Shown here: piece by piece, positions 40,387 through 45,455 of the stretch | Layout of the letters: each line of letters starts with the position of its first letter | Numbering within the stretch: position 1 is the stretch's first letter | Assembly (NCBI GenBank): GCA_902605645.1 | Contig: CACLDE010000001.1 | Location: 62,001-126,000 of the forward strand | Length of the DNA: 64,000 nt | Source of the DNA: an uncultured Pelagibacteraceae bacterium | GTDB lineage: Bacteria; Pseudomonadota; Alphaproteobacteria; Pelagibacterales; Pelagibacteraceae | Direction: 5' to 3' | Made by a program: the position numbers and the translations under genes | Notes under the pieces: model-generated | Seen by the model: only the letters and a program-made list of their open reading frames with translations | Databases searched by the model: none | What the model was told of the DNA's origin: nothing

Positions 40387-41064
40387 CTATTTTATTATAT
40401 TTGATATTGAATTTAAGTTTAAATTTTTATTTTTAGAAATAAACAGACATGCAGACGACTTCAAAATTAATCCATCTTTTAATACCCTTAAATCGTTATC
40501 TTGTAACGTTTTTCCTGTTGAGGTAATATCTGTAATTATCTCAGCAGATCCGATAAAAGGATAAGTTTCTGTAGCCCCTAAGCTTGTTATCAATTTATAT
40601 TGTGTAACTCCCTTAGAAATTAAAAAATTATTTGTTAAATTTGGATATTTTGTTGCTACTCTAAGCCTTCTATTTTTTTTTGATCTTATATTAAAAGCCA
40701 CCTCTTCTAGATCAGCGATAGTTTGAACATCTATCCAATCATCTGGTACGGCAACAACTAAATTTGCATAACCAAAATCAAGTTTTTTTTTAATTAAAAT
40801 TTTATCTTTAATGTTTTTTTCGGACTCATTTAATAAGTCCAAGCCCGATATACCAAGATCTAAAGTTCCATCGCCTAGTCTTTGTATAATTTCTTTAGCA
40901 TGTAGATAGATAATTTTGATATTCGGTTTATTCTGAATAGAGGCAAAATAATTTCTTTCTTTAGAACTGTTTAAAATTTTTAATTCTCTTCTATTAAAAA
41001 AATCTAAGGATTTATCCTTTAACCTTCCTTTGCTCGGTAAACCTATAGTAATTATATTTTTCAT
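40387..41064 (-). CDS. hisG: ATP phosphoribosyltransferase, short form
   Basis: 225 residues, the short HisG that lacks the C-terminal regulatory domain and needs HisZ. Motifs: ITIGLPSKGRLKDKSLDFF at the start, GDGTLDLGISGLDLL and ITDITSTGKTLQDNDL (phosphate-binding). It catalyses the first step of histidine synthesis. hisZ lies 4 bp upstream, giving a hisS-hisZ-hisG run. Confidence 0.93.
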   Translation of the reverse strand: MKNIITIGLPSKGRLKDKSLDFFNRRELKILNSSKERNYFASIQNKPNIKIIYLHAKEIIQRLGDGTLDLGISGLDLLNESEKNIKDKILIKKKLDFGYANLVVAVPDDWIDVQTIADLEEVAFNIRSKKNRRLRVATKYPNLTNNFLISKGVTQYKLITSLGATETYPFIGSAEIITDITSTGKTLQDNDLRVLKDGLILKSSACLFISKNKNLNLNSISNIIK

Positions 41065-41068
41065 AATA

Positions 41069-42106
41069 TTAAATATTGTTTAAATTTATTGCTGCCCCAA
41101 CCGCTGGTATGTTTTTTTTTGCACCTAAGCTCTTCAATAAATCATCGTATCGACCACCTCTTGCAAATTCTTTTTTTGCTATAAATATCTCAAAAACAAT
41201 ACCTGTATAATACTCAATGTCTCTTCCAAAATCTGCGATGAAATTTACTTTTTGCTTAATTTTTTTCAGATTGTTGATTGATTTTATTTCTTTAAACAAA
41301 TTTTTTGAAAGATTATTTTTTTTAACAAATTCTAATAATCTTTGGTCTAATTCTGATAGTTTACAATTTATTTTAAGAAACGATCTTATGATTTTTACTA
41401 TTTTTTTTCCCTCATTAAATGATCTCGGGTCTTTAATCTTTTTATCAAATCTTTTAAGAATTTCTGAGATAGATCTTCCTGCTATAGTTCTTTTTTGATC
41501 CATTGTTCTCATTTCATAAAATCTTTTTTTATCTGTATTAAAAGCAACTGAGTCAAAATCTGAGTTTTTTTCTAATCTTTGAAGTAATTCTTCAAAATAT
41601 TTAGGCCGCCAAAAGTGTCTAATTAATCTAAGCTTCCATCTTTCCGGCATATCTAAAGAGTAAATTAATTTTTTAAAAAGACTAACATCTCCTACTTTTA
41701 CTAAAATTTTTTTACTCTTTATGCTCTTTGCGCAATTTAAAATAGTTTGTATTACTTTAATTTCATCTTTAGTTTGATTTTTTGATCCTAAAATTTCAAT
41801 TCCAAGCTGATCATTAATGAAATCTAATCCATTATTTCCGGATCTTCTATAAGCTTGTCCTGAATAATAAATTTTAGAGTTTGATTTTTTTTCTAAAAAT
41901 TTAATACATGATGCCACTGTTAAATCAGGTCTAAGGCACATTAATTTTCCGTCCTCGTTTTCAAATGTTAGCATTGATCTTTTAAAATTTTCACCTGATC
42001 TTTGAATGATGTATTCTGAGTCTAATAATATGTCTGGTTCTGATAAAATAAAACCATTGCTTTTAAAAGTTTTTATGATCCGTTCAGATAATTTTTTTGA
42101 TTTCAT
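41069..42106 (-). CDS. hisZ: ATP phosphoribosyltransferase regulatory subunit
   Basis: 345 residues, a paralogue of HisRS with class II motifs: KLMCLRPDLTVASCIKFL (motif 2-like), IYYSGQAYRRSG and the C-terminal FARGGRYDDLLKSLGA. It lacks the anticodon-binding domain of HisS and is shorter. It activates and regulates the short HisG. The start overlaps the hisS end by 23 bp; the two paralogues lie side by side. Confidence 0.9.
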   Translation of the reverse strand: MKSKKLSERIIKTFKSNGFILSEPDILLDSEYIIQRSGENFKRSMLTFENEDGKLMCLRPDLTVASCIKFLEKKSNSKIYYSGQAYRRSGNNGLDFINDQLGIEILGSKNQTKDEIKVIQTILNCAKSIKSKKILVKVGDVSLFKKLIYSLDMPERWKLRLIRHFWRPKYFEELLQRLEKNSDFDSVAFNTDKKRFYEMRTMDQKRTIAGRSISEILKRFDKKIKDPRSFNEGKKIVKIIRSFLKINCKLSELDQRLLEFVKKNNLSKNLFKEIKSINNLKKIKQKVNFIADFGRDIEYYTGIVFEIFIAKKEFARGGRYDDLLKSLGAKKNIPAVGAAINLNNI

Positions 42107-43418
42107 TTGCTATATCTTCAATTAATATTGATATCTCTTTGCCGGATTTTAAATCTTTTATAGTTGGTTTGCCCAATTTTATTTCATTTTCTCCATAAAG
42201 AATAACTGCTGGCGCATTAATTTTATTGGCGTATTCCATTTGTTTTTTTAACTTGCTTTCCCCGGGATAAATTTCTGCACTTATTTCTGCATCACGAAGA
42301 ATATTTTGTAAACTTATGTACTCTTTCATTGATTTTTTATCAAAGACGCATATGACAACAGGTCTTAATTGTTTAATTTTAAATTCTTTTTTTTGTATTA
42401 AAGCATAAACTAGTCGATCTAAACCAACTGATATTCCTGTTGCTGGAGCATCATAATTCCCAAAATTATTTACCAGGTTATCGTATCTCCCCCCGCCACC
42501 TATTGAACCAAATTGAATAGCTTTTCCTTTTTCATTTTTTACATCAAATTTTAAATTAACCTCAAATATTGGACCAGTATAATATTCAAGACCTCTGATG
42601 ACTGATGGATCAAATTGAAAATTATCAAAGTTATAATTTTTAAATATCTCAAAAATTTCTTTTAAGTCTTCAGTTTCAGGCGTTGTCTTTTTTAGTTCCT
42701 TTTCTATTAAATCAATATTTTTTGTTGTTAAATCTGCTCCTCTTGTAAAATCACCAGATTTATCTTTTCGTCCTTTCCCTAATAGCTTTTTTACTTCTTC
42801 CCAGCCTAATCGGTCTATTTTGTCTAAAGCTCTTAGAGCAGTTAGTCGTTGTTCGTTATTATCTGTATTTATTTTTTTGAATAGATCATCTGTAATTTTT
42901 CTTGATGAAATTTTAATAATATATTCTTTTTTATTTAAACCACATTTTTCAAGGATTTCAGAAATTAATATACATAACTCAGCATCAGCTTGTAAATTTT
43001 TAGTGCCTACAAAATCTGCATCGAATTGCAAAAACTCTCTAAATCTACCTGGTCCTGGTTTTTCATTTCTCCACACTGTTCCAAGTTGATATCTTTTAAA
43101 AGGTTTTGGGATTTCCAAATAATTTTTAGCAACGTACCGTGCTAATGGTGCCGTTAAATCATATCTAAGAGATAACCATTTTTTTTCATCCTTAAATGAA
43201 AAAACACCTTCGTCAGGCCTATCTTTGTCTGGTAAAAATTTTCCAATGCTGTCGCTATACTCAAAACTTGGAGTTTCGAGGTACTGAAAACCATACTTGA
43301 TCATAACTTTCTTAATATTAGAAATTATAAAATCACGTACGAGTAATTCTTTTTCTTGTCTGTCAACAAATCCTAACGGAATTTCTTTTAAGGGTTTGTT
43401 TTTTTTATCTTTCGTCAT
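42084..43418 (-). CDS. hisS: Histidyl-tRNA synthetase
   Basis: 444 residues from ATG 43418. The ORF track begins at 43484, but those first codons are the tRNA-His gene. Motif 2 in SLRYDLTAPLARYVAKN and FKRYQLGTVWRNEKPGPGRFREF, motif 3 in SIGGGGRYDNLVNNF, and the signature RGLEYYTGPIFEV are clear, followed by a C-terminal anticodon-binding domain. It charges tRNA-His. Only AAAA lies between the tRNA 3' CCA and the ATG, so no ribosome site can exist outside the tRNA. Start choice rests on the tRNA boundary. Confidence 0.95.
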   Translation of the reverse strand: MTKDKKNKPLKEIPLGFVDRQEKELLVRDFIISNIKKVMIKYGFQYLETPSFEYSDSIGKFLPDKDRPDEGVFSFKDEKKWLSLRYDLTAPLARYVAKNYLEIPKPFKRYQLGTVWRNEKPGPGRFREFLQFDADFVGTKNLQADAELCILISEILEKCGLNKKEYIIKISSRKITDDLFKKINTDNNEQRLTALRALDKIDRLGWEEVKKLLGKGRKDKSGDFTRGADLTTKNIDLIEKELKKTTPETEDLKEIFEIFKNYNFDNFQFDPSVIRGLEYYTGPIFEVNLKFDVKNEKGKAIQFGSIGGGGRYDNLVNNFGNYDAPATGISVGLDRLVYALIQKKEFKIKQLRPVVICVFDKKSMKEYISLQNILRDAEISAEIYPGESKLKKQMEYANKINAPAVILYGENEIKLGKPTIKDLKSGKEISILIEDIANEIKKII

Positions 43419-43422
43419 TTTT

Positions 43423-43499
43423 TGGTACAGCAGGGTGGATTCGAACCACCGACCCCTAGTTCCACAAACTAGTGCTCTAACCAACTGAGCTACTGCTGC
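43423..43499 (-). tRNA. tRNA-His (anticodon GTG)
   Basis: Read on the minus strand the gene folds into a clover leaf: acceptor GCAGCAG / CTGCTGT, D arm GCTC...GAGC, anticodon arm CTAGT TTGTGGA ACTAG with GTG, T arm GGTGG TTCGAAT CCACC, discriminator A and an encoded CCA. Position -1 is T, so the G-1 usual for tRNA-His is not encoded, and the first pair is G1-U72 with A73. This derived form is known from a set of alphaproteobacteria. It lies 4 nt upstream of hisS. Confidence 0.95.
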
Positions 43500-43670
43500 A
43501 TAACTCCTTTTTATATTAATTATTGATAAATTTGTATTTTAAAATATGTAATGATTTTAGCTAAGCAATAGCCTAGCATGCATTCTGTGAGAATGTGAAT
43601 AAAACTGAAATGTATTTTTACTATTCATTACTGTCTATTTAAGAAATAAATGTGTCTTTTTCAAGAACTA

Positions 43671-45192: not shown

Positions 45193-45314
45193 AAGTGATT
45201 TCTATAATAATTTATTGAGTAATAGAATTAAAATAAGTCAATAAATTGTCAATAAACTGAGAGCAATTATCATTTGACTTTGAAGTTTTACTAGGAGAAA
45301 ATATTAAAAAAAAC

Positions 45315-45455
45315 GGGAGAGACTACTTGATTGTAGCGCCGAAGGAGCAACCACCCCGGAAACTCTCAGGCAAAAGGACCGTAAAAGTAAAATTCTGGAA
45401 AGAGACAAGTTCTCACCGAAGGAGTAAATCTCTCAGGTACCGATACAGATGGGGT
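45315..45455 (+). promoter_or_regulatory. Tandem glycine riboswitch upstream of malate synthase
   Basis: Two aptamer units are visible: the first begins GGGAGAGACTACTTG and contains CGCCGAAGGAGCAACC and CTCTCAGGCAAAAGGACCG; the second begins TCTGGAAAGAGACAAG and contains CACCGAAGGAGTAAATC and CTCTCAGGTACCGATACAGA. These are the conserved glycine riboswitch cores. The second aptamer ends about 15 bases before the glcB ATG. In SAR11 such a switch is reported to turn on malate synthase with glycine, linking glycine sensing to the glyoxylate route. Confidence 0.95.

Follow-up and report, generated by a model that had tools for sequence, protein, structure and literature searches.

The tRNA-His and hisS locus in Pelagibacteraceae

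We analysed a stretch of 64,000 nucleotides (the window) from contig CACLDE010000001.1 of an uncultured Pelagibacteraceae bacterium. On its minus strand, a tRNA-His gene is followed by hisS, hisZ and hisG and is preceded by a short leader ORF with hairpins and promoter-like elements. The features are as follows, from upstream to downstream.

43637..43664, minus strand: candidate promoter P1, a consensus match with TTGAAA (43664-43659), a 16 bp spacer and TTAAAT (43642-43637)
43557..43628, minus strand: leader ORF of 23 codons (MNSKNTFQFYSHSHRMHARLLLS, then stop), for which we propose the name hisL; apparently leaderless, conserved family-wide
43581..43595, minus strand: hairpin 1 (CATTC-TCACA-GAATG), spanning the His codons and restricted to genera g1 and g9
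43560..43577, minus strand: hairpin 2 (GCTAGGC-TATT-GCTTAGC), immediately downstream of the final His codon (43580-43578)
43513..43518, minus strand: TAATAT box, a candidate -10 element of a putative second promoter P2, located 13 nt upstream of the tRNA
43423..43499, minus strand: tRNA-His (GTG), on which ARAGORN and Rfam agree, with encoded CCA, G1.U72, A73 and no G-1
43419..43422, minus strand: AAAA spacer from the CCA to the hisS ATG, 3-5 nt long family-wide, a probable cutting site of the 3' endonuclease
42084..43418, minus strand: hisS, histidine--tRNA ligase, 444 aa (TIGR00442, 367.6 bits against a cut-off of 286.75)
41069..42106, minus strand: hisZ, regulatory subunit of ATP phosphoribosyltransferase (HisZ families score highest, though under their cut-offs)
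40387..41064, minus strand: hisG, ATP phosphoribosyltransferase (above the TIGR00070 cut-off), 4 bp after hisZ

The hisS gene begins with ATG ACG AAA GAT at 43418, directly after the four bases AAAA (43422-43419) that the initial annotation had pointed out. Its observations on the missing Shine-Dalgarno (SD) sequence and on the hisZ overlap also held. Neither the 4-nt gap nor the final 15 nt of tRNA-His (CACCCTGCTGTACCA) contains a purine-rich SD, and hisS overlaps hisZ by 23 bp (42084-42106), an overlap of the same length in 65 of 66 loci. The hisS reading frame is open backwards into tRNA-His, and homology starts only at the ATG after the gap. On this ground, we rejected both an in-frame upstream start (TTG at 43484, inside the tRNA) and a start further inside the ORF. 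The latter had been named as evidence that would count against the tRNA being the leader of hisS, and no alternative start was found. Since the distance is fixed, no alternative start or SD is present and promoter-like elements lie upstream of the tRNA, tRNA-His and hisS are very probably co-transcribed. Downstream of hisS, a hisZ match was present in all tested loci of Pelagibacteraceae (f1, the family of the window) and its sister family (f2), and a hisG match in all but one, which has hisZ without hisG.

The gap between tRNA-His and hisS was 3-5 nt in all 155 Pelagibacteraceae loci read (6 genera). Within the genus of the window, it was 4 nt in 104, 3 nt in five and 5 nt in one of 110 rows, of which two are the window locus itself and some come from genomes present twice (in both collections). 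The gap sequence varies within the genus (AAAA, AACA, TAAA, GATA, CAAA and others). A further set of 25 readable loci, including five more genera, gave 3-5 nt in 25/25, and 20 additional loci of genus g6 gave 4-5 nt in 20/20. The gap was kept where the tRNA body had strongly diverged, with G1.U72 and A73 retained, and where HisRS was only 42-54% identical. Within the family, the spacing comparison that had been proposed thus revealed no variable distance, and tRNA-His directly precedes the hisS start throughout. In the sister family, tRNA-His is not beside hisS; where found, it lies 1.4-2.4 kb upstream (7/8 loci), usually behind tRNA-Phe, and in one locus (L032) a transporter-like minus-strand ORF lies between tRNA-His and hisS.

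At the same locus, genus g6 (L132-L148, L273-L292) has a number of widely differing tRNA-His bodies and types of HisRS, which suggests repeated turnover of the tRNA-His/HisRS pair with the gap and the acceptor end unchanged. Seven of its loci (L141, L145, L282, L286, L287, L288, L290) have a tRNA-His D-loop of AATAGCA or AATAGTA without GG and a T-loop of AGCGTAA or GGCAGAA without TTC, and ARAGORN misses them. A cloverleaf fold is still present in L282 and L290, and genome G103 shows no second His tRNA among 32 Rfam hits. These loops resemble the elbow loss of animal mitochondrial tRNAs. The tRNA-His and HisRS of SAR11 are of the derived type with A73 and no G-1, as in Rhizobiales and their allies, and a joint transfer of tRNA and synthetase has been discussed in the literature (PMC3937112). 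The close linkage of tRNA-His and hisS would make such co-transfer easier.

A short ORF with histidine codons upstream of tRNA-His

The block upstream of tRNA-His is strongly conserved and contains the short ORF, which the initial annotation missed; the His-specific element of the locus is this ORF, upstream of the tRNA. Where the full upstream sequence was available, every family locus has it (132/132), and each copy carries 2-6 His codons. It was also found in 19/20 further loci, the exception being L283, which showed no leader ORF with at least two His codons. The ORF is 20-34 codons long across the family, and its stop codon lies 42-69 nt upstream of tRNA-His. Some species have lost individual His codons, but at least two are always left. 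The peptides differ by genus (MKNIVLNHTHHHTHAKHGLGN, MIKKYISTHRHHPHAEHALSY, MIKIINNLTLSHRHHLHAGCTLAI, ...SHTHSHRVHAKLLLS), and other genera have His-rich segments such as HTHHHTHAKH, HRHHPHAEH, HRHHLHAG and HRHINHAG. At least two His codons with an abutting hairpin were present in 21/21 representatives and in 0/8400 dinucleotide shuffles. The locus shows two features expected of a leader-peptide attenuator: a short ORF, predicted to be translated, with clustered His codons, upstream of an operon whose genes (tRNA-His, hisS, hisZ, hisG) serve histidine.

Hairpin 1 is intact in 108/110 loci of genera g1 and g9, with the compensatory types CACTC/GAGTG and CACAC/GTGTG, and hairpin 2 in 110/110, at -6 to -10 kcal/mol. 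At the same position as hairpin 2, the other genera have a hairpin of different sequence; across genera, this hairpin has 6-8 bp. The last conserved His codon adjoins the 5' arm of the hairpin, either directly (0 nt) or with 1-2 nt overlap; in L046, the one exception among the loci listed, a Gln codon replaces the third His codon. Because the leader ORF stops within the hairpin or just 3' of it, a ribosome moving fast might block the hairpin too. The tail after hairpin 2 is AU-rich and has no U-tract, a terminator scan found no canonical intrinsic terminator in the region, and no antiterminator pairing was seen by eye. Both masking, with termination or pausing, and RNA-processing control are therefore possible.

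The joint 191-nt transcript did not fold more stably than its shuffles (z -1.07). In g1, a 9-bp pairing between hairpin 2 and the 5' segment of tRNA-His was seen by eye; it is unrecognisable in other genera and was attributed to chance. An Rfam scan of the window returned only tRNA, a glycine riboswitch and SRP RNA. With no T-box or other match upstream of hisS, a T-box or other known RNA at that position was rejected. The glycine riboswitch is a single aptamer (RF00504) at 45304-45391 on the plus strand, and the 721-aa ORF downstream of it is probably malate synthase G.

Boxes resembling TTGAAA and TAAATA are conserved across loci. By consensus matching, the distance from the end of the second hexamer to the leader ATG is 6-8 nt in 113/132 loci. 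This short distance of a -10-like hexamer suggests a leaderless leader ORF, with a transcript start at or near the AUG. In genera g7 and g8, P1 is less clear, and the transcript may begin about 6 nt upstream of the leader ATG. Nearly all loci have a TAnnAT box 13-16 nt upstream of the tRNA 5' end, which suggests a second promoter (P2) for basal tRNA. If P2 is real, the attenuator would add to a basal level; such a promoter would bypass the leader, which counts against leader control.

His leaders are not confined to the family of the window. All eight sister-family loci have 11-codon His leaders (for example MIVFTHHHIHI, MLIIKHHHSHI and MFKFKHYHYHI, each followed by a stop) about 90-100 nt before hisS with no tRNA between, and one distant alphaproteobacterium has MNTALHHHHHHS, then stop, upstream of hisS. 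A His leader before hisS is therefore common to both families of the order, and of the two only f1 has tRNA-His between leader and hisS. In the sister-family loci (L149-L156), the leader stop is also directly followed by a conserved hairpin, and an ACCCC element, likewise conserved, precedes the start of hisS, which would be a different attenuator design. Limited literature searches found no description of the Pelagibacteraceae leader. A survey of structured RNAs in Pelagibacter dropped tRNA-bearing intergenic regions from its ranked candidates (PMC2704228), which would explain why the leader was missed.

Proposed control of the operon and alternative readings

To place the tRNA-hisS junction in a genomic context, we compared the tRNA loci of three genomes. 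In SAR11 genome G119, 11 of 28 tRNAs (L183-L210) are followed by the ATG of an ORF at 2-11 nt, none with an SD, and in G103 an ORF lies within 15 nt of 7/31 tRNAs. As a control, a 3.7-Mb alphaproteobacterium (G261) had a close ATG behind 0/32 tRNAs and one short TTG case. Besides hisS, the ORFs behind tRNAs in G119 look like phhB, nadK, galE, typA, cca, tig, serA and others, and most are unrelated to their tRNA. The short gap is not His-specific; the tRNA as a leader is common in streamlined genomes, and adjacency alone is thus no argument for a HisRS loop.

tRNAs that directly abut SD-less ORFs at several genome sites, as seen here, fit a mitochondrial-type tRNA punctuation. A mitochondria-like punctuation, in which tRNA excision leaves a nearly leaderless mRNA, is likely from this arrangement, and its genome-wide use in SAR11 is possible. 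Caulobacter translates leaderless mRNAs as well as other mRNAs (PMC4117421). An RNase E/G match was above the cut-off in 8/8 genomes. The RNase Z model gave no match above its cut-off in the same number of genomes (0/8), only weak sub-threshold ones, and RNase Z was rejected as the tRNA 3' enzyme for this reason.

From the anatomy and conservation of the locus, we consider it likely that a His leader-peptide attenuator controls the tRNA-His-hisS-hisZ-hisG operon. Transcription from P1 would start at the leader AUG or no more than about 2 nt from it, and the speed of the ribosome over the leader His codons would report the supply of charged tRNA-His. Since the last His codon abuts the hairpin, a ribosome stalled there would cover the hairpin 5' arm and so may alter the fate of the nascent transcript. 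In the simplest version, stalling would prevent a pause or terminator hairpin, and RNA polymerase would proceed into tRNA-His, hisS, hisZ and hisG. A shortage of charged tRNA-His would then raise the levels of the tRNA, its synthetase and the first histidine-synthesis enzyme together. The putative second promoter before the tRNA would supply basal tRNA. RNase P would release the tRNA from the joint transcript together with a 3' endonuclease, for which RNase E, acting in the A-rich spacer, is the probable candidate. The processed hisS mRNA would keep 0-4 leader nucleotides and be translated without an SD.

A different role for the leader is that it acts through translation-coupled RNA stability or processing, for example by shielding an RNase E or III site, rather than through termination. 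Hairpin 2 has no U-tract, the terminator scan was empty and RNase E is present, all of which favour this mode; however, no specific cleavage site is known, and proteobacterial his leaders are mostly transcriptional attenuators (PMC2965389), and we consider this mode less likely than not. That the short ORF is no sensor, and the segment is a structured RNA or a small-protein gene with incidental His residues, appears very improbable. The two hairpins are strongly conserved as RNA in g1, and in some species the His codon in the loop is not constant, yet His-rich ORFs of unrelated sequence recur in other genera and directly before hisS in the sister family, and the shuffles gave none (0/8400).

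Other readings place the control, or the lack of it, at the junction itself. HisRS might bind the uncut tRNA-His and repress its own translation, or the uncut tRNA might block the start so that processing sets the output. Tight spacing of tRNA and start codon throughout the family (3-5 nt) and hisS genes without an SD in f1 agree with this, and other synthetases, such as E. coli ThrRS, bind their own leaders. Against it, about ten other tRNAs in G119 are followed at similarly short distances by genes that in most cases do not encode the matching synthetase, the His-specific element lies upstream of the tRNA, and rapid tRNA processing would remove the target, and we judge this mechanism unlikely. 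Of the feedback between tRNA, HisRS and HisRS translation suggested earlier, what stands is a probable feedback arrangement involving both the tRNA and HisRS, whereas the action of HisRS on uncut tRNA is unsupported. Pure streamlining, with spacers squeezed out, the tRNA cut away and the junction left unregulated, is a rather probable account of the junction, given the tRNAs with an ORF at no more than 15 nt (11/28 in G119 and 7/31 in G103, versus 0/32 with an ATG in G261) and the equally fixed hisS-hisZ junction (23 bp in 65/66). It explains the 4-nt gap well but not why a His leader ORF and hairpin are kept in a streamlined genome. As it concerns the junction only, it is compatible with a leader attenuator.

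With the attenuator upstream of tRNA-His, the tRNA gene would come under a sensor of its own charging. We give roughly even chances to the combination of an attenuator on tRNA-His that reads its own codons with a SAR11-wide tRNA excision that makes leaderless mRNAs. SAR11 bacteria are among the most abundant cells on Earth and are thought to retain little regulation; a conserved leader ORF kept in such a streamlined genome would mark histidine charging as still controlled. If the proposal is true, the bacterium measures and corrects its own tRNA-His supply, its synthetase and its histidine synthesis in one transcript. The genome-wide tRNA-before-ORF pattern also makes it possible to examine tRNA punctuation of the mitochondrial kind in a free-living bacterium.

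Comparison with known systems

To our knowledge, no tRNA gene behind an attenuator reading its own codons has been reported, and a limited literature search found no such report. We also know of no tRNA gene inside the pheST, trpS and leuS operons. Attenuators precede these synthetase genes in gammaproteobacteria (pheST) and Streptomyces (trpS and leuS) (PMC1262725), and share with SAR11 a leader peptide for the cognate amino acid before the synthetase gene.

The SAR11 leader resembles that of the enterobacterial his operon and the His leaders known before hisS*/hisZ (hisS paralogues) in bacilli (PMC2965389), in which an ORF with His codons and a hairpin precede histidine genes. Unlike those leaders, the SAR11 ORF is apparently leaderless, its His codons are few (2-6) and interspersed, neither a canonical terminator nor an antiterminator was found, and a tRNA-His gene lies between leader and hisS. 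In Firmicutes, a T-box riboswitch before hisS (PMC2965389) likewise senses tRNA-His charging to control hisS, as the SAR11 leader is proposed to do. The T-box binds the tRNA directly, whereas SAR11 has a leader ORF predicted to be translated and no Rfam T-box hit.

The trpL leader peptide of Sinorhizobium meliloti is leaderless (PMC7298713). Like the SAR11 leader, it is an alphaproteobacterial leader ORF; its AUG is the 5' end of the transcript, a position that is predicted in SAR11. It differs in that it concerns tryptophan, is a proven attenuator and involves no tRNA. With the tRNA punctuation of animal mitochondria, SAR11 shares tRNAs that directly precede ORFs, and excision there yields nearly leaderless mRNAs, as predicted here. 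In contrast to mitochondria, SAR11 bacteria are free-living and have many promoters, and their 3' enzyme is likely RNase E rather than RNase Z.
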